Assembly (NCBI RefSeq): GCF_012932565.1
Contig: NZ_JABBYJ010000001.1
Coordinates: forward strand, 1 to 64,000
Direction of reading: 5' to 3'
Length of the DNA stretch: 64,000 nucleotides
Origin: Sneathiella limimaris
GTDB taxonomy: Bacteria; Pseudomonadota; Alphaproteobacteria; Sneathiellales; Sneathiellaceae
Part shown: positions 9,049 through 53,645 of the stretch, in pieces
How the letters are laid out: each line of letters starts with the position of its first letter
Position numbering within the stretch: the stretch's first letter is position 1
Made by a program: the position numbers and the translations under genes
The notes under the pieces: generated by a model
Seen by the model: the letters and a program-made list of their open reading frames with translations, nothing else
What the model was told of the DNA's origin: nothing
Database searches by the model: none

Positions 9049-10164
9049 CTAGCTGTTTACCGCCGCGGCTTCCTTTTCAAGCTCTTCAGCCTTTGCTTCC
9101 ACAAGCTCGACAATATGATCAACCATATGTTCGCTATCAATCTTGTGATCCGTCACGCCACTCAGGTAAACCATATGACTGCCTTTGCCGCCACCGGTCA
9201 GGCCAATGTCGGTTTCTCGGGCTTCACCCGGGCCATTGACCACACAGCCAATGATGGAAAGGGTCATAGGTGTTGAAATATGTTCAAGCCGCTCTTCCAG
9301 CTTTTCGACCGTTTTGATAACTGGAAAAGCCTGCCGCGCACAGGAAGGGCAGGAGATAATCGTCACACCGCGACGTCTCAGACCAAGGCTTTTGAGGATC
9401 TCATATCCAACTTTGATTTCCTGTACAGGATCAGCAGACAAAGACACCCGAACCGTATCCCCGATCCCGGACCAGAGTAGCATACCAAGTCCGATTGAGG
9501 ATTTCACCGTTCCGGACATCAGCCCGCCTGCTTCCGTGATCCCCAGATGCAGGGGGTAATCACACGCCTCCGCAAGGCCCTGATAGGCCGCAACAGATAA
9601 AAATACGTCTGACGCCTTTACGCTGATCTTGAAATTGGTGAAGTCATTATCTTCCAAGATCCGTGCGTGATTGAGGGCAGATTCCACCATCGCTTCCGGG
9701 CAGGGCTCTCCATATTTCTCAAGAAGCTCCCGCTCCAATGACCCGGCATTAACCCCAATGCGCATTGAACAGTTGTTATCAACGGCTGCCTTGACCACAT
9801 CGCGGACCCGATCGGCTGAGCCGATATTGCCTGGATTAATTCGAAGACAGGCAGCGCCAGCCTCTGCGGCTTCAATCCCACGCTTATAATGAAAATGAAT
9901 ATCAGCAACGATCGGAACTGTTGTCTCGCGGATAATTTCCTTCAGGGCTTTTGTGCTTTCCTCGTCCGGGCAGGACACCCGCACGATATCGGCACCGGCC
10001 TCTTCCAGAGCATGGATCTGGGCGATAGTAGCTTTTGGGTCTGACGTCAGGGTATTTGTCATGGACTGAATGCTGATCGGGGCATCGCCACCAACCTTTA
10101 CATCACCAACGGTCACCTGACGGGATTTACGGCGAATGATATCGCGATAGGGTCTGACACTCAT
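9049..10164 (-). CDS. ispG: 4-hydroxy-3-methylbut-2-enyl-diphosphate synthase (IspG)
   Basis: IspG reduces methylerythritol cyclodiphosphate to HMBPP, the penultimate step of the non-mevalonate isoprenoid pathway, with a [4Fe-4S] cluster. The N-terminal TIM barrel starts with [17 protein letters not shown]. Cluster cysteines are visible in [12 protein letters not shown] and in [12 protein letters not shown] near the C-terminus. At 371 residues it is the short two-domain bacterial form. Its presence argues that the HMG-CoA-synthase-like protein further right is not needed for isoprenoid synthesis. Confidence 0.95.
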
Positions 10165-38522: not shown

Positions 38523-39656
38523 CTAACTCTGCAGCTCCGCCCGGATTGCTGCACTCTGTTCCCCAAGGTCCGGGGCATCCAATTCAGCGCCACCGGTCAG
38601 TGGCAAGGCCGGCAGCTTCAAGGTCCCCATCGCATGCTGCGTGACGGAGCGAAGCAAGCCGCTTTCCATCATCACAGGATCTGCCATGGCCTCTTGCAAG
38701 CTATTGACCTTGTTACAGATCAGGCCCGCAGCTCCCAGCTTTTCCACCCAATAGGCAACCGTTTCCATTTCGATCCGGCCCTGAACCAGCTCCCGAACAG
38801 CGGCATCATTCTCCGCCCGGGCTCCAAAATCTTCAAACCGGGGATCCTCGATCAAATCGGGAACGGCCAAAACCTTTGCCATTTCGATGTAATGATCTTC
38901 GGTGGCCAGTGCAATCATCAATTCACCATCCTTGGCCCAATAGTTCCCGGAGGGCACGTTCAGCTTGGCCGCTGCAACACCGTGCAACTGCTGATCAATC
39001 ATTCTGGCCTTCTGCACTTCCAGCGCGGACAGAACCAGTGAATTGTCCAAAAATTGCGCTTCAGTTGTACGGTTCCGGTTAAAGAGTGCCATGCTCACTG
39101 ACTGAAAGGCATAAAGGCCGGTCAGAATATCGATGATCGGAATATCAAATTTGTGGGCTATGCCATCAACGCCCACATTCCCTGCCATAAACCCGCTATA
39201 GGCTTGGGCAGCGCTATCCGTACATGGGCGTTTTGAATAGGCGCCTTTCTGGCCAAACCCACTAACGGACAGATAAATCAGATCGGATTTGAGGCTTTTC
39301 AGCTTCTCAAACCCAATGCCAATTTTATCAGCCACCCCGGGGCGGGAGCTTTCCAGAAAGATGTCGGCCTCTCCCACCATCTGATACAGCACATCCATAT
39401 CATCCGGTTTTTTCAGATCTAGCATCAGGCCTTCTTTTCCCCGGTTGAAGGCCACAGAATAAACCGATGAGGTTCCGTATTTCCGCCCTACATTCCGGCC
39501 CCAGTCCCCATGAGGCGGATCCACCTTGATTACCCGCGCGCCATACTGGGCCAGCAGCGATGCACAATAGGGTCCCGCAATCCCCTGACTGGTATCCACA
39601 ACCAGTAAGCCCGAAAGCGGGCCATCGACGGCTTTATTCTGTTTGGAAAGTGCCAT
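38523..39656 (-). CDS. CaiB/BaiF family CoA-transferase
   Basis: Class III CoA-transferases move CoA between carboxylic acids through an aspartyl-CoA intermediate. Asp176 in IPIIDILTGLYA is at the expected catalytic place, and the N-terminal LVVDTSQGIAGPYCASLLAQ and VIKVDPPHGD segments are typical. The C-terminal lid domain is present and the 377-residue length is normal. It lies downstream of a strong terminator that ends the badI transcript, so it has a separate promoter. A role in activating the ring acid used by BadH/BadI is an inference from position. Confidence 0.88.
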   Translation of the reverse strand: MALSKQNKAVDGPLSGLLVVDTSQGIAGPYCASLLAQYGARVIKVDPPHGDWGRNVGRKYGTSSVYSVAFNRGKEGLMLDLKKPDDMDVLYQMVGEADIFLESSRPGVADKIGIGFEKLKSLKSDLIYLSVSGFGQKGAYSKRPCTDSAAQAYSGFMAGNVGVDGIAHKFDIPIIDILTGLYAFQSVSMALFNRNRTTEAQFLDNSLVLSALEVQKARMIDQQLHGVAAAKLNVPSGNYWAKDGELMIALATEDHYIEMAKVLAVPDLIEDPRFEDFGARAENDAAVRELVQGRIEMETVAYWVEKLGAAGLICNKVNSLQEAMADPVMMESGLLRSVTQHAMGTLKLPALPLTGGAELDAPDLGEQSAAIRAELQS

Positions 39657-39706
39657 GAGTTTGTCCTTGGTTTTTGTTGTTATCTTTGAGGTTCAGGATC
39701 CGGCGT

Positions 39707-39735
39707 AAAAAAAAACCGGACCTTGACTGGTCCGG
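39707..39735 (-). terminator. Intrinsic terminator after the badI-like gene
   Basis: CCGGACC (39716-39722) and GGTCCGG (39729-39735) form a stem with a six-base loop; on the minus strand it is followed by nine T residues. It closes the aliB-badH-badI transcript and separates it from the CoA-transferase gene. Confidence 0.9.
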
Positions 39736-39780
39736 CTCATCATAACACTGATTATGTTTATTCGGTAAAGCCTGTATCGA

Positions 39781-40563
39781 TCACTTCACATGCTTGCGAA
39801 AATCAGGTTTGCGTTTTTCATTGAACGCCTGAACACCTTCACGGGATTCATCAGTATCGTAATAGAGGCTGAGCGCCTGCATTCCCATAGCCGAAATCGC
39901 CCGAATATTTTCACTGTCCAGGTTAAAGGATTTCTTGGCGATGGAGATAGCGGTTGGGCTTTTGTCCATAATCTCTGCGCACCAGCGCTCCACCTCGGCA
40001 TCCAGCTCCTCATGCGGAACAACTGTGTTTACAAGGCCCATTTTTTCGGCTTCTGCAGCACTGTAGCGACGGCAGAGATACCACATCTCCCGCGCTTTTT
40101 TCTCGCCGACAATCCGCGCCAGATATGCCGTTCCAAATCCAGGATCGACAGATCCCACTTTCGGACCCACCTGACCAAACTGCGCTTTTTCAGATGCGAT
40201 TGTGAAATCACACAGGGTCGCCAGCACATTGCCGCCACCAATGGCAAACCCTTGCACGCGGGCGATCACCGGCTTTGGCACATCGCGGATCAGGCTTTGC
40301 AGCTCATCGATCGGCAGGCCAATGATCCCGCGGCCATCATACTGGCCATCATGGGCAGACTGATCGCCCCCTGTGCAGAAGGCTTTTTCACCCGCACCGG
40401 CCAGAACAATCACCCCGATTTCCTTATTCCAGGCGGCCTTGTTCATGGCATCGATCATTTCCTCAACCGTCTGACCACGAAAGGCGTTGTATTTGTCTTC
40501 CCGGTTAATGGTGATCCAGGCGGCGCCGTTTTTCTCTTCGTATAAAATATCTTCGTATGACAT
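39781..40563 (-). CDS. badI: 2-ketocyclohexanecarboxyl-CoA hydrolase (BadI-like)
   Basis: This crotonase-family enzyme closely follows the BadI pattern as I remember it from Rhodopseudomonas palustris: NAFRGQTVEEMIDA, AFCTGGDQSAHDGQYDGRG, FGQVGPKVGSVDPGFGTAYL and YYDTDESREGVQAF with the same 260-residue length. BadI opens the ring of 2-oxocyclohexanecarboxyl-CoA to pimelyl-CoA. MenB (naphthoate synthase) is the nearest alternative, but no menaquinone genes are present. It is third in the leftward aliB-badH-badI operon. Confidence 0.85.
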   Translation of the reverse strand: MSYEDILYEEKNGAAWITINREDKYNAFRGQTVEEMIDAMNKAAWNKEIGVIVLAGAGEKAFCTGGDQSAHDGQYDGRGIIGLPIDELQSLIRDVPKPVIARVQGFAIGGGNVLATLCDFTIASEKAQFGQVGPKVGSVDPGFGTAYLARIVGEKKAREMWYLCRRYSAAEAEKMGLVNTVVPHEELDAEVERWCAEIMDKSPTAISIAKKSFNLDSENIRAISAMGMQALSLYYDTDESREGVQAFNEKRKPDFRKHVK

Positions 40564-40580
40564 GGGTTTTATCCTTCTTC

Positions 40581-41336
40581 TTATCCGGCCATTGTCAGGC
40601 CACCGGAGACGCTGATGACCTGCCCGGTAATGTAATTAGATTCCTCACTCGCCAAAAAGGCAACAATGCCGCCAAAATCCTCTGGCTGACCCAAGCGTTT
40701 AAACGGGATTGCCCGTTTCAGGCCTTCATAAATCTTCTGGCCCATTTCACCCTCACCAACAAAGTCATTGAGGATCGCTGTATCGCTAGGTCCCGGACAG
40801 ATTACATTCACATTGATATTCTTGCGGGCCAGTTCGCGCGCCAGTGTCTTGGAAAAGGCAACCATGCCCCCCTTACAGGCGGAGTAAACCCCTTCCCCGC
40901 TGGAGCCAACCCGCGCTGCGTCCGAAGCAATGGTGATGATCTTGCCCGTGCCCCGCTCGGACATACCGCTCGCGACCGCATGGGTCATATGCAAGGGACC
41001 CCAAAGATTGATCCCGACGATTTTCTCCCAAAGCGCCTTGTCTGTATCAAGGAAATTACCAACCTTGTCCCAGCCAGCGTTATTCACCAGCACATCTGTC
41101 GGGCCAAAGGTCTCTTCAAATTCCGCGACACCTTTCTTGACCGCATCAAAGTCCGAAATATCGACTGCATAAGCACCAGCGCTTGATAGCTGGTCAGCTG
41201 TTTTCTGGGCCGCATCGCCGTTCAGGTCAAACACACCGACAGTACACCCCGCCTCACTCAGCCGTTTACAAATAGCGGTCCCAAGTCCACCGCCGCCGCC
41301 GGTGACGATCACTTTTTTACCTTCAAGTCCTCTCAT
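40581..41336 (-). CDS. badH: 2-hydroxycyclohexanecarboxyl-CoA dehydrogenase (BadH-like SDR)
   Basis: A classical short-chain dehydrogenase with the NAD motif TGGGGGLG, the NNAG motif and the YSACK active site (catalytic Tyr and Lys). NNAGWDKVGNF and ECPGP-like CPGPSDTAIL segments fit BadH. It would oxidise 2-hydroxycyclohexanecarboxyl-CoA to the 2-oxo compound that BadI cleaves. The neighbours decide the name; the sequence alone would only say SDR. It overlaps the aliB-like gene by 4 bp and lies 17 bp before badI. Confidence 0.8.
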   Translation of the reverse strand: MRGLEGKKVIVTGGGGGLGTAICKRLSEAGCTVGVFDLNGDAAQKTADQLSSAGAYAVDISDFDAVKKGVAEFEETFGPTDVLVNNAGWDKVGNFLDTDKALWEKIVGINLWGPLHMTHAVASGMSERGTGKIITIASDAARVGSSGEGVYSACKGGMVAFSKTLARELARKNINVNVICPGPSDTAILNDFVGEGEMGQKIYEGLKRAIPFKRLGQPEDFGGIVAFLASEESNYITGQVISVSGGLTMAG

Positions 41337-42478
41337 TGGTTTTCTCCCAACTTCTGTCTCGCAATTATCATTTTCATTATCTGGGCTGTGCCATCGCCGA
41401 TCTGCAGACCGAGCACATCCCGAAGCCGCTGTTCAAACGGGTAGTCACGACCATATCCGCCATGTCCATGGGTCAGCAGGCACTGATGGACAATTTCAAA
41501 CGCCAGTTTCGGCGGCCACCATTTGCACATGGCGGCCTCGCTTGTGTGGGGCAGGCCATTATCCTTCAGCCAAAGCGCCTTGTAACAGAGCAGCTTTGCA
41601 GCCTCGAGCTGGGTTTCCGCTTCGGCGAGCGGAAAGACAACCCCCTGATTTTCCGCAATCGGCTTACCGAACGCGACCCGCTCCTGCACATATTTCCAGC
41701 TTTCCTTCAAGGATGCTTCGGCAACCGCCAGACACTGAAGACCGATCAGCGCCCGGCTGAAATCAAAGCCTTCCATCACTTGTGAAAAGGCCCGGTTCTC
41801 ATCGCCAAGGCGGTTTTGCTCGGGCACAAATACCTGATCAAAGAAGATAGATCCCCGCCCGATGCAACGCTGGCCCAGATCATCATACCGTCCCGTTGTG
41901 ATCCCGGCTGAGTTCATCTCCACCAGAAACGCACTCACACCTTTGGCGCGGGCATCCTTTTCACCAGTACGGGCGAAGACAATCATAATGTCCGCCTGAT
42001 CTGACATGGAAATAGAGGCCTTCTCGCCGCTCAGCTCATAACCACCATCGACTTTCTTGGCCTTCAGTTGCAGATTGGCAGCATCTGATCCACCGCCCGG
42101 CTCGGTCAGGGCAACTCCCAGAACGACCTTACCTTCACAGATCTTGGGGGTCCAGATCTTGGCAATTTCCTTGTCCGCGTAGCGGGTGAGGATTTGGGAA
42201 TTCAAAGAGCCCAGCAGCTGCACATAGGCCATATTGAAATCAGCGGCAGCAATCGCCTCCATGATCAGTCCACTTGTCAGGTAGGTGACCCCGCTACCGC
42301 CATATTCCTCTGACTGCTCGGGTGCGATCAGGCCAAGCTGTCCCATCTCCTGACACAAGTCCTTTGAAAATTGACCGCTTTGATCCCGCTCCTGATACCC
42401 AGGCGCCAGTTTTTCAGTCGCAAACTGCCGAGCAGCTGCGACGATATTTTTTTGGTCCTCATCCAGCTGGAACTGCAT
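41333..42478 (-). CDS. aliB: Cyclohexanecarboxyl-CoA dehydrogenase (AliB-like acyl-CoA dehydrogenase)
   Basis: A 381-residue FAD acyl-CoA dehydrogenase: N-terminal helical domain, middle beta domain with GVALTEPGGGSDAANL, and C-terminal helices with GGYGRDYPFEQRLRDV. In most acyl-CoA dehydrogenases the catalytic base is a Glu in EGT; here the segment is IGDGTAQIM with Asp362. To my memory an Asp at this place is described for cyclohexanecarboxyl-CoA dehydrogenases, which supports AliB. It is the first gene of the operon and is divergent from a MarR regulator across a 100-bp spacer with a palindrome. Confidence 0.75.
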   Translation of the reverse strand: MQFQLDEDQKNIVAAARQFATEKLAPGYQERDQSGQFSKDLCQEMGQLGLIAPEQSEEYGGSGVTYLTSGLIMEAIAAADFNMAYVQLLGSLNSQILTRYADKEIAKIWTPKICEGKVVLGVALTEPGGGSDAANLQLKAKKVDGGYELSGEKASISMSDQADIMIVFARTGEKDARAKGVSAFLVEMNSAGITTGRYDDLGQRCIGRGSIFFDQVFVPEQNRLGDENRAFSQVMEGFDFSRALIGLQCLAVAEASLKESWKYVQERVAFGKPIAENQGVVFPLAEAETQLEAAKLLCYKALWLKDNGLPHTSEAAMCKWWPPKLAFEIVHQCLLTHGHGGYGRDYPFEQRLRDVLGLQIGDGTAQIMKMIIARQKLGENQ

Positions 42479-42530: not shown

Positions 42531-42542
42531 TCAATATATTGA
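42531..42542. promoter_or_regulatory. Palindromic operator candidate for the MarR regulator
   Basis: TCAATATATTGA is a perfect 12-bp palindrome in the spacer between aliB and the MarR gene, 53 bp from the aliB start and 37 bp from the marR start. MarR proteins bind AT-rich palindromes of this kind in divergent promoters, and it is well placed to control both genes. Confidence 0.6.
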
Positions 42543-42578: not shown

Positions 42579-43034
42579 ATGTTCGATGAATTAAGCAATA
42601 GATTGTTCTTTAGGCTGTATCAGACCGCCAATACGCTGCAAAAAGTTGGGGCGCAGGCACTGGATACGGAACAGATCACCACGCAACAATGGTCAGTCCT
42701 CGGCGCCCTCTCTCGGGAGGTGGCCAGTGATGGGATGAGCGTGACGGAACTGTGCGAATATTTGCGACTGAGCCGACAGAACATCACCGGCGTCCTGAGC
42801 CGGATGGAGGAGCGCGGCCTGATCGATCGAAAACCCTCGCCTGTGGATCAGCGCATTCGGGTTATCTGCATGAGCAAAGAAGGACAGCGCATGTGGGCGA
42901 ACATCACTCCCCTGATCAACAGCTTCTATGAAGAAGCCTTGGAAGGCTTCTCGACAGAAGACCGGATTTCCTTCGCCCATTATCTTCACAAACTAGGTGA
43001 AAAGCTTCACCAGATGGATCAACGGCGAAAGTAA
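42579..43034 (+). CDS. MarR family transcriptional regulator (possible BadR)
   Basis: A 151-residue winged-helix MarR protein: helical dimer parts at both ends, recognition helix LSRQNITGVLSRMEERGLI and wing DRKPSPVDQRIRVICMSKEG. It is divergent from the aliB-badH-badI operon, and in R. palustris the equivalent genes are controlled by the MarR protein BadR. A CoA-thioester or free ring acid would be the natural inducer, which is inference. It is convergent with the second MarR gene. Confidence 0.87.
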   Translation: MFDELSNRLFFRLYQTANTLQKVGAQALDTEQITTQQWSVLGALSREVASDGMSVTELCEYLRLSRQNITGVLSRMEERGLIDRKPSPVDQRIRVICMSKEGQRMWANITPLINSFYEEALEGFSTEDRISFAHYLHKLGEKLHQMDQRRK

Positions 43035-43037
43035 GGT

Positions 43038-43529
43038 CTAGCTTTTTTCTTTTTCCAGAAGGATATCTGTCGCGTTTTTGAGGGCGTAAGGATCCCCTTC
43101 CAGCGCTTCCAGGAGATTTTGCCGTATGGTCAGCATAGTATCCATGAAGGCTTGGGCGTCTTCCTCGGACATATCCTGAAAAGTCATCTCATTTACCTGA
43201 CGACCACATTCGGTCATGATGCGGCCAATGGGTTTGGCCTCTTCTTTCAGGACCACCCGTTTGACCCGGCGGTCTTCTTTATCCACGTGACGTTCGACGA
43301 ATCCTCTTTCCTCTAAACGGCCGATCAGACCACCAACTGTCACCGTTCCCACATCCATCCGCCTTGCGATTTCAGTCTGCGGCAGGTTGTCTTCAACAAA
43401 CAGTTGGGCAAGGACCCAGGCTTGAGACGTGGTCAGACCATGCGGTGCCAATAGTCGATCAAACAGTCGCACTCGAAACCGCGCAATATCGGCAATTATA
43501 AAGCCTGCTCGGTGATCCTTGTAATCCAT
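43038..43529 (-). CDS. MarR family transcriptional regulator
   Basis: A second MarR protein, 163 residues, with HTH segment LPQTEIARRMDVGTVTVGGLIGRLEERGFV and wing DKEDRRVKRVVL. It shares little with its neighbour beyond the fold, so the pair is not a recent duplication. It is divergent from the HMG-CoA-synthase-like/thiolase pair and so may regulate them. The stop lies 3 bp from the stop of the other MarR gene, so the two end to end. Confidence 0.87.
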   Translation of the reverse strand: MDYKDHRAGFIIADIARFRVRLFDRLLAPHGLTTSQAWVLAQLFVEDNLPQTEIARRMDVGTVTVGGLIGRLEERGFVERHVDKEDRRVKRVVLKEEAKPIGRIMTECGRQVNEMTFQDMSEEDAQAFMDTMLTIRQNLLEALEGDPYALKNATDILLEKEKS

Positions 43530-43827
43530 ACCCGTTATCCTTTCTCAAGCCACCGCAACTATAATGCTTGCGCTGGCAATCGCAAGTTTCGTGAAAAAGT
43601 TATATACGACACCCATCTCTCTAGATAATTAGCTTGCGTATTAATAGAGGGATAGATACTTTATGAGCGAGTTGTGGATCAATGGATAAAGCGAACAAGC
43701 AAGAAAAATTGTTTATCCATCAGGTCCTGCCCGCTTCCTGTTCGTTTGCTTGGCTGAACCGTTCTTCCAGTTCGTCCGGCAAGGCAGGGACACACAATAA
43801 CCAAAGAACCCGATAGAGGAGACAATT
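43530..43827. promoter_or_regulatory. Divergent spacer between MarR gene and thiolase unit
   Basis: A 298-bp spacer. The strong ribosome binding site AGAGGAGA (43815-43822) sets the GTG start at 43828. Related AAGCAAG/GCTTGC words appear at about 43573, 43632, 43700 and 43750 and could be regulator sites, but no perfect palindrome stands out. Confidence 0.35.
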
Positions 43828-45294
43828 GTGGAAGTCGGAATTCTAGCTTATGGCGGATACATTCCCAAAAGCAGACTGCAAAGAGAAGATATCTTCAAGG
43901 CACATGCCTGGTTCAATCCTGGATTGAAAGGCCTGGCTCGCGGAGAACGCTCTATGGCCAACTGGGATGAGGATAGTGTTACTATGGCTGTTGAAGCCGC
44001 CAGGGACTGCCTCGGTGAAGATGATCGCACCAATATCAGCGCGGTCTATATGGCCTCAACCACCTTTCCGTTCATGGATCGGCAAAATGCCGGCATCGTT
44101 GCTGATGCCCTGAACCTGCCAAGCAGCCTTCAAACCCTTGACTTTGCCTCCTCCATGCGGGCAGGGACAGCTGCTCTGAATTTGGCGCTGCAGGCCGCAG
44201 GTGCGGCAAGTGGGCCAATCCTGGTAACCGGTGCAGAGCGCCGCAACACCAAAGCCGGTAGCGCGCTCGAGCTCACAACTGGTGACGGCGCAGCTTCTTT
44301 CCTTGTCGGCTCAGGCAACGTCATCGCCAAACTTCTCGGCAGCCATACAGAGTCCGTCGATTTCGTGGATCACTTCCGCGGCGAAGAAGCGCAGTATGAC
44401 TATACCTGGGAAGAACGGTGGATCCGTGATGAGGGCTACATGAAGATCGTGCCAAAAGCGATCGAAGGTGCCCTTGAAAAAGCGGGTGTGAAGGCAGAAG
44501 ACATTTCCGCTTTCTGTTTTCCGGTTGCCGCGCGAAACGTCGCCGCAGGCCTTGCCAAAAAAGTAGGGATTTCAGAAGGCGCTGTTGCCGATAATCTGCA
44601 AGCCAATTGCGGCGAAGCAGGAACGGCTCATGCTCTGATCATGTTGGCCCATGCCCTTGAAACGGCAGCACCCGGAGACAAAATCCTGGTCGCCAGTTTC
44701 GGTCAGGGGTGCGATGCGCTTATTCTGGAAGCGACCGATGCGATCACCTCCCTCCCCAAACGGGCTGGCGTTGGTGGTTCCTTGGCTGCAGGCCGGAAAA
44801 CCTGCAATTATCACCGTTTCCTTGCCTTCCATCAGGGTCTGGATATGGATCTTGGCATCCGGGCCGAAGTGGATAAAAACACAGGTCTCACGACCCATTA
44901 CCGTAATCGCTACATGGCGCAGCGCATGGTGGGCGGCGAATGTAGCAAATGCGGAACGGTCCAGTTCCCGAAAAGCAATATGTGCGTCAATGAAAACTGC
45001 GGCGCCATCGGCACTCAGGAAGACCACCCGTTTGCGGAAAAAACGGCAACCCTTAACTCCTACACCGCTGACCGTCTCACCTTCTCTCCCGATCCACCAG
45101 CTTATTATGGTATGATTCAGTTTGAAGGCGGCGGCCGTCTGATGAGCGATTTCACCGACATATTCCCGGATGATGATCTTCATGTGGGAATGGAACTCAA
45201 AATGGTCTTCCGCGTGAAAGACTTTGATCATAAACGCGGTTTCCGCCGCTATTTTTGGAAAGCCGTCCCCGTGGACGCAACCGGAGGAGAATAA
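43828..45294 (+). CDS. HMG-CoA-synthase-like protein fused to a DUF35 OB-fold/zinc ribbon
   Basis: Residues 1 to about 340 have the HMG-CoA synthase/thiolase fold (DEDSVTMAVEAA, SMRAGTAAL, GDGAASFLVG). The rest is a DUF35 zinc ribbon (CSKC then C-x4-C near 380-395) and OB fold. By alignment from memory the HMGS catalytic residues are gone: Glu becomes Thr78, Cys becomes Met110, and no His is present in the FCFPVAARNV segment. In archaea thiolase, DUF35 and HMGS form one complex; here DUF35 is fused and the thiolase follows after 3 bp. A scaffold role for the thiolase is my inference. GTG start is set by AGAGGAGA. Confidence 0.75.
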   Translation: MEVGILAYGGYIPKSRLQREDIFKAHAWFNPGLKGLARGERSMANWDEDSVTMAVEAARDCLGEDDRTNISAVYMASTTFPFMDRQNAGIVADALNLPSSLQTLDFASSMRAGTAALNLALQAAGAASGPILVTGAERRNTKAGSALELTTGDGAASFLVGSGNVIAKLLGSHTESVDFVDHFRGEEAQYDYTWEERWIRDEGYMKIVPKAIEGALEKAGVKAEDISAFCFPVAARNVAAGLAKKVGISEGAVADNLQANCGEAGTAHALIMLAHALETAAPGDKILVASFGQGCDALILEATDAITSLPKRAGVGGSLAAGRKTCNYHRFLAFHQGLDMDLGIRAEVDKNTGLTTHYRNRYMAQRMVGGECSKCGTVQFPKSNMCVNENCGAIGTQEDHPFAEKTATLNSYTADRLTFSPDPPAYYGMIQFEGGGRLMSDFTDIFPDDDLHVGMELKMVFRVKDFDHKRGFRRYFWKAVPVDATGGE

Positions 45295-45297
45295 GTC

Positions 45298-46503
45298 ATG
45301 GCTTCAGGTATCAAGGATAAAGTCGCGATTTTGGGAATGGGATGTTCCAAATTCGGCGAGCGTTGGAACGATGATGCGGAAGATCTGATCATTGAGGCCT
45401 TTGTTGAGGCGATCGAGGATGCAGGCATTGACAAAAGCCAGATCGATGCGGCCTGGTTTGGCACCGCCATTGAAGAACAGCATGTGGGTAAATCCGCTGT
45501 GCCGCTCTCCATGGCCCTTCGCCTTCCCAACATTCCGGTAACTCGTGTTGAAAACTACTGCGCAAGTGGCTCAGAAGCCCTTCGGGGTGCGGTTTATGCC
45601 GTTGCCTCAGGTGCTGCTGATATTGCCATGGCAGTTGGCGTTGAAAAACTGAAAGACACTGGGTATGGCGGCCTGCCCCAGCGCAGCCGCGGATCGGTAA
45701 ATGATCTGTTCTGGGCCAATGCCTCTGCCCCTGGCTCTTTCGCTCAGCTGGCATCCGCTTATGCAGCCAAGCATAAAGTCAGTGACAAGGACCTGAAACG
45801 GGCGATGGCTCATGTTTCTGTGAAAAGTCACGATAACGGATCCAAAAACCCGAAAGCCCATCTTCGCAACAAAATTGATGAAGACAAGGTGATGAACGCG
45901 CCAATGATCGCTGAACCGCTAGGTCTGTTCGACTGTTGCGGTGTGAGTGACGGGGCCGCGGTTGCCATCGTCGCTTCCCCAGAGATAGCCAAATCCCTTG
46001 GCAAAAAAGATCTGGTGACCTTCAAGGCTATGCAGCTTGCGGCTTCAAACGGTCGGGAAGCCCAGCATAACTCCTGGGATGGCAGTCACTTTGTGACAAC
46101 ACGGGCGGCTGCAAAACGCGCCTATCAGGAAGCTGGTATCACCAGCCCACGAGACCAGATCAGCATGTTTGAAGTGCATGACTGCTTTTCCATCACTGAA
46201 CTCGTGACTATGGAAGATCTGTTCATTTCGGAAGAAGGCCGTGCGGTAAATGATATCATGGATGGCTTTTATGATGCAGACGGCAAGATCCCCTGCCAGA
46301 TCGATGGGGGCCTGAAATGTTTTGGCCATCCGATCGGTGCGTCAGGTATCCGGATGCTTTATGAGATGTATCTGCAAATGTATGGCCGCGCTGGTGAACG
46401 TCAGCGCAAAGAAGATCCGGTCTTTGGCATGACCCATAATCTGGGCGGCTTTCCGCACCAGAATATCTGCTCATTGACCATCGTCGGAAAAGAAGGAGCG
46501 TAA
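45298..46503 (+). CDS. Thiolase (SCP2/acetyl-CoA acetyltransferase type)
   Basis: A 401-residue thiolase with the acylated Cys88 in VENYCASGSEAL, the EVHDCFSITEL segment and the GHPIGASG motif with its catalytic His. The usual CGGG end motif reads GGFPHQNIC, typical of the SCP2-thiolase branch that pairs with DUF35 proteins. It starts 3 bp after the fused HMGS/DUF35 gene, so the two should form one complex. In the local context, cleavage of 3-oxoacyl-CoA from ring-acid breakdown is a fair guess. Confidence 0.87.
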   Translation: MASGIKDKVAILGMGCSKFGERWNDDAEDLIIEAFVEAIEDAGIDKSQIDAAWFGTAIEEQHVGKSAVPLSMALRLPNIPVTRVENYCASGSEALRGAVYAVASGAADIAMAVGVEKLKDTGYGGLPQRSRGSVNDLFWANASAPGSFAQLASAYAAKHKVSDKDLKRAMAHVSVKSHDNGSKNPKAHLRNKIDEDKVMNAPMIAEPLGLFDCCGVSDGAAVAIVASPEIAKSLGKKDLVTFKAMQLAASNGREAQHNSWDGSHFVTTRAAAKRAYQEAGITSPRDQISMFEVHDCFSITELVTMEDLFISEEGRAVNDIMDGFYDADGKIPCQIDGGLKCFGHPIGASGIRMLYEMYLQMYGRAGERQRKEDPVFGMTHNLGGFPHQNICSLTIVGKEGA

Positions 46504-51236: not shown

Positions 51237-53645
51237 TTAGGCGACGCGACGCTCGAAAGCGAGGGTATCCGTATCCACTGACTGCCATTGCAGATCACCG
51301 TCATACCGCCAGGCCATCACGCCGTTTTCGTCCAGCGCGAACAGGTGAAGCCACTTGTTATCGAACAGGGCACGGACAGCCTCATGCCGTTTCAAAATCT
51401 CTGTCATGGCTTCCCGCGGGGCTTCAATACAGACAGAGAGGCGCAAAGGATCATGCATGAGCTTTTCGCCATCATGAACGGACTGCCAGGGCAACCCTGC
51501 CCGCAATGTCCCGCCGTTCCCCTCCAGCACGCCAATGCCGCCTGTGACATTATGCAAAAGCTTGTTGCCGCCGCCGAAGACCTCGGGTGACACACTTGAT
51601 CCATAATATTGCAGGCTGATCCAGCTTGCGACAACGACAGGTGCTGTCATGATCAATTCCAGCACAGAAAAATCCTTATCCTGCCGCCAGTTATATTCAT
51701 GCAAAAAGGCGCGACCTTCCAGGTTTTTACCGGAAACCCGGCCATGAGGACTTGCAATAAACGCCTTGCAACCCGCCAAAGCCCATTCTGGACGCACTTC
51801 GGACCAGTCCTGGCTCCGCCGCTTAATATCCTTAGCCGTCTTGGCCCGTGGCAGCCGAAGCGCCCGTTCTGTTGCCGTGACCTTCGTTGCTTTGTTCAGC
51901 CAGCTTTTAACAGACTCAAGCCCTTTGAGGGATTTAGAAACTTCAAGATCTTGCTCAAACAAGGTCACTTCATCGGTCGTGGTATTATGCAAGGCCGCAA
52001 TAAAGTGTGTGTCCTCAGGGATCTGGATCCCCCTGCTTGCCAGGGCGGCTTTGACCTCAGGATCATTGAGCAGACCCGCCAGAAGCCGGGCGTTCACTTC
52101 ACCTGAATAGCCCCCACAGGCACCACACTGCAGGGCGCTGGCATGCGGGTTATTAACGACTTTCGCACCATGTCCAACCAACAGAACAATAGGCGCAAAA
52201 TCCTGAGTTAAGGACATGGCCTGCAAAACCTTTTGCGCAGTTTCAACGCGGGTTTCCAGATCCGGCTGGGGATCGAAAACAGGACGTGGATCTATCTTGT
52301 CACTGGACTTGGTCAGGCCAAGCGCATCAAGGCCTAGTTTAGCGAAATACAAGGGGCCCGCGGCTTCAACAAAAGCGAAGGATGAGACAGCTGCCAGTTT
52401 AAAGCGACCCCATGCCCGTTTTGCCCGAGCGCCATAGCGGGATTGCTGGTCTTCTTGCGGCTTGCCATCTGCACGACTGTGCAATCCCGGATTGAGCAAG
52501 ACGGGCAGACGGTGCTCTGAGACGTCCGAGGCAAATCCGTGATGGGATGTTGGCAAGCCAAAAAAGCCTGCAAAGCCCATTGTCCTGATCCCCGGATGTA
52601 TGCTTTCAAGCGCCCGCCGGAAAACTTCGGAGCGCACATCAATACAAAAGGCAGCCAACAGATCTGGCCGATCAGAAGCAGGCTTTGCAACAGGCTTAGC
52701 CAAAAGCTCACCCAAGCGCCGCTGTTCCGCCCGTTCCGCTGCTTCCTGCAAGATCACATCCAGAACCTGATCCGCTGTTGGCTCCAGCGGGGCGCTATGG
52801 GCATCCTTCGCATTTTGCCATGCCTCCCTAATCGCGTCACCGCAGAGCTTGAACAAGGCTTCTTCCCACAGCAGCCGGATGGCCAGCAAATCAATGATCG
52901 CCTCGTCTGACTGGCCTGCAAGCTCTGCCTGCCATAGCTGATAACGGGCATATTGCGCCCAGCCGCCCATGGACATCAGAAGGGCATGGAAATAGGTTGG
53001 AAGTGCCTCTTCTGACAATCCAAGGGTCTGAACCGCCCGGACAATTGCACCAGCGGCCGTCTCAGGAGCCTGATCCACATGCTGGGCAAAGCCTTTCACG
53101 CCAATAATTCCCGGAGTCAAATCCCGCGTTGCAAAGGCCCGCCATTGTTTGAAGGCACCCCCTTCGCGCGGCGCACCCCATAAAGCCTGCCCCTGATCAA
53201 AATATCCTGCGGCCCAAAACCCGATGCGTTCTGCGACCAAATCAGGGCACTGAATATCAAGACAAGGGGTCGCCAGATCTGCAACTGTTGGCACAGCCTT
53301 CTGAGGAGCAGAAGGTTCCGACAGGTGACCTTTCAGCTCTTCAAGGCTTTCAGGCCGCTGACCAGCAGGAGCCGCCAAGCGGGCCGCTTCAAGATCAGCA
53401 TCCGTGATTTTCCCACTCTCAAGTCTTTTCAGGTACCATTTCCGGGGCATTGTCACCCGGCTTCCAGACACCCGTGCAAGACGGGCACCTGTCATCGCGA
53501 GAGATTCATCCGCCTGTCCCAGATACGGATTGACCGCAACAGTCGAAGACAACGGCCAGGCTGGCGGGATAGACCGCGCTGCCTTATTCGCCGCGCCAAG
53601 ACAGAGATCCAATTCAGCTTTATTCATTGTCAATTGCTCAGTCAT
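51237..53645 (-). CDS. dabA: Inorganic carbon uptake subunit DabA (UPF0753/DUF2309)
   Basis: DabA is a beta-carbonic-anhydrase-like subunit that hydrates CO2 in one direction when coupled to DabB, trapping bicarbonate in the cell. The zinc site is intact: Cys334 and Asp336 in FCIDVRSE and His492 and Cys507 (GHGAK, LQCGAC), with the 15-residue His-Cys spacing of the characterised Halothiobacillus protein. At 802 residues it is full length. It overlaps dabB by 8 bp, so the subunits are translationally coupled. No RuBisCO or carboxysome gene is nearby, which points to bicarbonate supply for ordinary carboxylases. Confidence 0.93.

Follow-up and report, generated by a model that had tools for sequence, protein, structure and literature searches.

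A gene pair in Sneathiella limimaris probably encodes an obligate two-component β-ketothiolase in which the HMG-CoA-synthase-like half serves as a non-catalytic scaffold, a reading to which we assign a probability of about 0.7. It draws on the loss of the HMG-CoA synthase (HMGS) triad across the fused relatives, the retention of the thiolase residues, the co-occurrence and adjacency of the two genes, Foldseek matches to DUF35-type complexes and the β-oxidation genes around the pair. Judging by the residues that each half has lost or kept, the synthase half is predicted to have lost HMG-CoA synthase activity throughout the family, and the thiolase half to have kept its own. The window, the whole 64,000-nucleotide stretch that was analysed, carries the pair at 43828–46503.

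Architecture of the gene pair

The fused gene (43828–45294, + strand, GTG start, 488 amino acids) is separated by 3 nt from the ATG of the thiolase gene (45298–46503, + strand, 401 amino acids), which lies in the same frame; the spacing is as the first-pass annotation had given it. The fused protein consists of a ketoacyl-synthase-III/HMGS-like domain followed by a DUF35 zinc ribbon and OB fold. Pfam places ACP_syn_III_C at residues 216–295, zf-ChsH2 at 365–392 and OB_ChsH2_C at 404–462, and both DUF35 models exceed their cut-offs (PF12172, 25.6 against 23.2 bits; PF01796, 37.3 against 27.1 bits). The HMG-CoA-synthase-like (pseudo-synthase) domain spans residues 1–338 (43828–44841, +) and falls below the NCBIfam cut-off for archaeal-type HMGS (NF003274, 200.6 against 244 bits) as well as that of TIGR00748 (151.5 against 353 bits), which leaves it outside both HMGS families. 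A flexible linker (residues 339–359; 44842–44904, +) leads to the zinc ribbon (44920–45003, +), with all four cysteines present (Cys372, Cys375, Cys386 and Cys391), and then to the OB-fold domain (45037–45213, +). The AlphaFold2 model of the fused protein has a pLDDT of 82 and a pTM of 0.85, with residues 341–359 of the linker disordered (pLDDT < 50). Pfam, NCBIfam and Foldseek thus agree with the earlier proposal that the HMGS fold and the zinc-ribbon/OB end are retained; HMGS-like, DUF35 and thiolase domains are encoded together, and the archaeal/PhlABC-type architecture is kept with the thiolase as partner.

Family-wide loss of the synthase triad

Aligned with the HMGS of M. thermolithotrophicus (6esq), the fused protein places Thr78 (codon 44059–44061) at the catalytic Glu, Met110 (44155–44157) at the Cys and Pro232 (44521–44523) at the His, all on the + strand. 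The same assignment follows from the family alignment and from HMMER comparison with four solved chains. The first-pass annotation had reported Thr78, Met110 and no His; alignment with archaeal HMGS does not restore the triad, and the structure search agrees. Across 81 aligned fused proteins, that of the window included, the three positions are Thr (81/81), Gln, Leu, Met or Arg (55, 20, 5 and 1) and Pro (81/81), and Glu, Cys and His occur in none. Glu and Cys were again absent from ten further fused proteins in other genomes. The third position is Ala in L087, and the first is Gly in L089. One genome (G191) carries two pairs; the fused protein of its second, distant copy (L096, G191:C10:11861-13237), the most distant one, carries His at the third of these positions, whereas Glu, Cys and the zinc cysteines are all missing.

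Within the same alignment, FabH-like proteins show their Cys and His, and the HMGS-like protein L093 shows Glu, Cys and His. Because these controls recover catalytic residues, the triad loss is no alignment artefact; together with the HMMER alignments to solved chains they rule out misalignment. Local decay of the synthase gene is also ruled out, as the loss is family-wide with fixed replacements. The genome has ispG, as the first-pass annotation had stated, inside the window at 9097–10134, so the mevalonate pathway is not needed.

Several positions are invariant among the fused relatives: T78, P232, H268, a D191-Y-x-W-E-E-R-W198 block and W46-D-E-D49. The first four are more than a bare scaffold would need. 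The DUF35 part is less uniform, with three of the four zinc cysteines missing from 11 of the 81 fused relatives, so its role may vary. In these eleven (L030, L032, L036, L039, L045, L046, L049, L054, L074, L076 and L080, several of them Parvibaculum) the ribbon may no longer bind zinc.

An intact thiolase that travels with the fused gene

The second subunit scores 688.2 bits against PRK06157/NF004810 (cut-off 403) and has the Cys/His/His set intact, as Cys88 and the HDCF and GHP motifs. Cys88, H294DCF and GH344P are invariant in 69 of 69 thiolase relatives. Mean pairwise identity is 76% for the thiolase, 60% for DUF35 and 57% for the pseudo-synthase. By sequence and by fold it is nearest to archaeal acetoacetyl-CoA thiolase and related thiolases, with PhlC well behind. 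A retro-aldolase role of the Sal/Ltp2 kind is ruled out, YDCY or a paired Tyr standing there and HDCF here. The S. limimaris genome also encodes a further DUF35 protein next to a thiolase (G000:C2:231320-232122), apparently an ordinary unfused pair.

The thiolase gene begins within 200 nt downstream of the fused gene in 74 of the 77 loci with contigs that permit this check. We searched 399 Pseudomonadota genomes for the fused gene (E ≤ 1e-100) and for thiolases above the PRK06157 cut-off: the fused gene is present in 10, the thiolase in exactly those 10, and there are 11 copies of each (counts uncorrected for phylogeny). Among 14 control genomes, one contains a thiolase that passes the PRK06157 cut-off. 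In G147 the pair is split between contigs and the fused gene is not near the end of its own, so co-occurrence of the two genes is not a matter of linkage alone. Because the two genes share a frame, their products could be co-folded as a single read-through chain with Gly in place of the stops; both folds were recovered, at a pTM of 0.58 that is too low to show an interface.

Relation to known DUF35 complexes

The best Foldseek matches of the fused protein are PhlA (9skh, 5m3k and 5mg5), HMGS (6esq and 6et9) and MucABC (9vbo); PhlA, the archaeal HMGS of 6esq and the MucABC subunit, all from DUF35-type complexes, rank above ordinary HMGS and FabH. In the HMMER alignment the triad positions are Cys, Gly and Gln in PhlA. 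PhlA lacks the catalytic Cys and Glu, acyl transfer uses residues of PhlC only, and activity needs all three subunits (PMC6392133). PhlABC (5m3k, 9skh) therefore resembles the pair in combining an HMGS-like subunit without Cys or Glu, a DUF35 bridge and one active thiolase-type subunit. It differs in having three separate genes and in performing CoA-independent C-acylation in antibiotic synthesis, and PhlA is only about 27% identical to the fused subunit; here, HMGS-like and DUF35 domains share one protein, in a β-oxidation context. The archaeal acetoacetyl-CoA thiolase/DUF35/HMG-CoA synthase complex (6esq) has the same three domains, and its thiolase is the best Foldseek match of the thiolase in the read-through model (34% identity, against 26% for its HMGS subunit), but its subunits are separate and unfused and its HMGS is active, with Glu, Cys and His, and makes HMG-CoA. 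In MucABC (9vbo), the HMGS Glu, Cys and His of the HMGS-like subunit are replaced by Cys, Glu and Gln, according to the same HMMER alignment; the complex carries out acetylation in tetramate biosynthesis (PMC10161427).

The first-pass annotation had compared the plan with the benzoylsuccinyl-CoA thiolase BbsAB (7pxp), which shares DUF35 plus thiolase, a similar thiolase part and a β-oxidation-like catabolic setting. We know of no HMGS-like subunit in BbsAB, and as solved without one it is less close to the pair than PhlABC, MucABC and the archaeal complex. DUF35 is a separate small subunit in BbsAB-type enzymes but is fused to the HMGS-like domain here, and the thiolase scores 153.7 bits against the NCBIfam BbsB model (cut-off 750), which puts it outside that type. 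The model that it does match, NF004810/PRK06157, is named only acetyl-CoA acetyltransferase, and the name is silent on an obligate fused partner.

Fusion of DUF35 to members of the thiolase superfamily was reported in 2010, as was the combination of an active and an inactive member in the phlABC operon (PMC2954200). With PhlA, these reports make the principle of a dead HMGS-like subunit a known one. The earlier suggestion of a dead synthase within a kept architecture holds, and such a subunit is not unprecedented. A literature search that reached few subscription papers found no paper on the fused catabolic form. What is new is that the HMGS-like and DUF35 domains are fused and that the fused protein occurs in β-oxidation modules; the principle is known from PhlA (published structure) and MucA (alignment).

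Genomic context of the pair

Among relatives, three loci (L014, L015 and L018) carry the pair in a module that also encodes an MFE-2-type hydratase, an SDR and a protein of thioesterase size that lacks a Pfam match. The modules of L014 and L015 include a MarR gene, and those of L015 and L018 a family III CoA-transferase; in L014 and L018 the genes immediately upstream encode an acyl-CoA ligase and an acyl-CoA dehydrogenase (profile scans covered L014 and L018; L015 was assigned from homology clusters). Downstream of the pair in Reyranella (L041) come genes for a FAS1-type dehydratase, a MaoC protein and an SDR; in several Sneathiella the pair is flanked by acyl-CoA carboxylase, acyl-CoA dehydrogenases, crotonase and ligase. 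The neighbours in Parvibaculum are not obviously catabolic. No polyketide synthase or NRPS genes occur among the annotated neighbours. These neighbourhoods are consistent with the terminal thiolytic step of β-oxidation.

In two of these loci (L014:266-4411 and L018:3-3583) the module adjoins homoprotocatechuate meta-cleavage genes, with HpaE and HpaH above their cut-offs in L014, which may point to an aryl-alkanoate substrate for these strains.

Upstream of the pair in the window, 38523–42478 (− strand) holds a compact cyclohexanecarboxylate-type cluster that appears to be a separate regulon. It comprises an AliB-like cyclohexanecarboxyl-CoA dehydrogenase (41333–42478; TIGR03207, 570.7 bits, just below the cut-off of 575.35), a BadH-like 2-hydroxycyclohexanecarboxyl-CoA dehydrogenase (40581–41336; TIGR03206, 354.4 bits, cut-off 431.2), the 2-ketocyclohexanecarboxyl-CoA hydrolase BadI (39781–40563; TIGR03210, 482.2 bits, above the cut-off of 467.6) and a family III CoA-transferase (38523–39656; PF02515, E = 1.2e-88), with no AliA or BadK beside them. 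Elsewhere in the window, an 802-amino-acid protein (51237–53645, −) may resemble the DUF2309/DabA inorganic-carbon uptake family. Activation of cyclohexanecarboxylate by a CoA-transferase has been reported in G. metallireducens (PMC9795900).

Two MarR-type regulators, identified by Pfam, lie between cluster and pair. One (42579–43034, +) is, from the operator comparison, probably the bad/ali operon's equivalent of BadR; the other, which we call MarB (43038–43529, −), is divergent from the pair and is kept beside it also in L004, L006 and L007, relatives without bad/ali neighbours. The site CAATATATTG (42532–42541, +) is a BadR-type operator of the bad/ali operon, with the CAAN4TTG form known for BadR operators in bad/ali clusters (PMC9795900), and recurs in 5 of 5 aliB–MarR intergenic regions. 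Before the pair it is found in none of the 8 MarB–pair regions, which apparently places the pair outside the bad/ali regulon; only an exact, positionally conserved site was counted, because one-mismatch relatives are expected by chance in the window. The MarR-to-pair regions instead share an element around AGCTTGC..ATTAA. Its core between MarB and the fused gene, AGCTTGCGTATTAA (43631–43644, +), is a candidate MarB operator; the element aligns in all 8 MarB–pair regions, and the exact copy is the sole match in the window at up to 2 mismatches.

Linkage to bad/ali genes is restricted to the window and four loci of close relatives (L001, L002, L008 and L016, with no aliB match in L002); the other 76 loci, some on short contigs, have the pair without such neighbours. 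We scanned 23 pair-carrying genomes, some of them incomplete, for badI, which is above its cut-off in 8, a near match in 4 and absent at E ≤ 1e-90 in 11, the last including several sequenced isolates. The genomes of L004, L006, L014 and L018 do have badI, apparently on other contigs. A dedicated pimeloyl-CoA cluster was considered and rejected for the S. limimaris genome, as its pimC-like genes all score below cut-off and none lies beside the pair.

Weighing the alternatives

The role in ring-acid (cyclohexanecarboxylate/pimelate) breakdown proposed by the first-pass annotation would make the pair a scaffolded thiolase dedicated to 3-oxopimelyl-CoA and part of the bad/ali pathway. That pathway requires a thiolase, the gene cluster contains no second one, and in the five linked loci the bad/ali genes are 1.3–5.3 kb away. 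We nevertheless consider this role unlikely: the MarR gene beside the pair and the conserved site upstream of it differ from those of the bad/ali operon, most loci are unlinked, nearly half of the scanned genomes lack badI, nine other Thiolase_C matches over cut-off are available in the same genome, and the Aromatoleum thiolase for that step is AabD (PMC9795900). With linkage limited, badI patchy and the operators different, the ring-acid connection is best seen as a local neighbourhood and not a property of the pair.

The invariant blocks W46-D-E-D49, D191-Y and W194-E-E-R-W198, with H268, T78 and P232, could instead mean that the pseudo-synthase plays a novel role of its own, catalytic or ligand-sensing, for instance by holding a second CoA ester and passing it on to the thiolase. 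This is quite improbable, given that conservation is lower in the fused protein than in the thiolase and that position 110 varies among Gln, Leu, Met and Arg, which indicates that the old nucleophile site has not been re-used. PhlA and MucA, with similar triad loss, are among the nearest structural relatives and would suit a CoA-independent or biosynthetic PhlABC/MucABC-type acyltransferase in place of a catabolic thiolase; we hold this to be very improbable, because the thiolase subunit is far nearer archaeal acetoacetyl-CoA thiolase than PhlC and the annotated neighbours point to β-oxidation, with no polyketide synthase or NRPS among them. Finally, although the HMGS fold and a moderate HMGS profile score are what a true HMG-CoA synthase with other residues would show, the absence of all three triad residues from every aligned fused protein and the presence of ispG reduce the chance of one to almost nothing.

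A proposed scaffolded two-component thiolase

For the favoured two-component β-ketothiolase, we infer a physical complex, the scaffold role, the direction of the reaction and the kind of substrate. The 401-amino-acid subunit, as sole bearer of a complete thiolase catalytic set, would cleave β-ketoacyl-CoA with CoA. The most likely task of the pseudo-synthase, together with the DUF35 module joined covalently to it, is to keep the thiolase within a PhlABC/archaeal-type assembly and to contribute to the CoA/substrate cavity; the pair would perform the last step of β-oxidation modules for some bulky or branched acyl-CoA. Co-inheritance of the thiolase with a fused protein that has lost its catalytic residues makes a built-in scaffold the most likely function of the helper. 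More tentatively, invariant non-catalytic residues of the fused pseudo-synthase/DUF35 subunit may shape or complete the active site in a conserved family of dependent catabolic thiolases that act on one common acyl-CoA in marine and soil Alphaproteobacteria.

If the two-component reading is right, a dead HMGS-like subunit is not confined to antibiotic pathways, where PhlA and MucA are found, but would also occur as a fused, obligate thiolase partner in β-oxidation modules. It would be wrong to label as HMG-CoA synthases those members of the fused-protein family that score weakly against HMGS profiles. The pair offers a two-gene system for studying the contribution of a pseudo-enzyme subunit to a thiolase.
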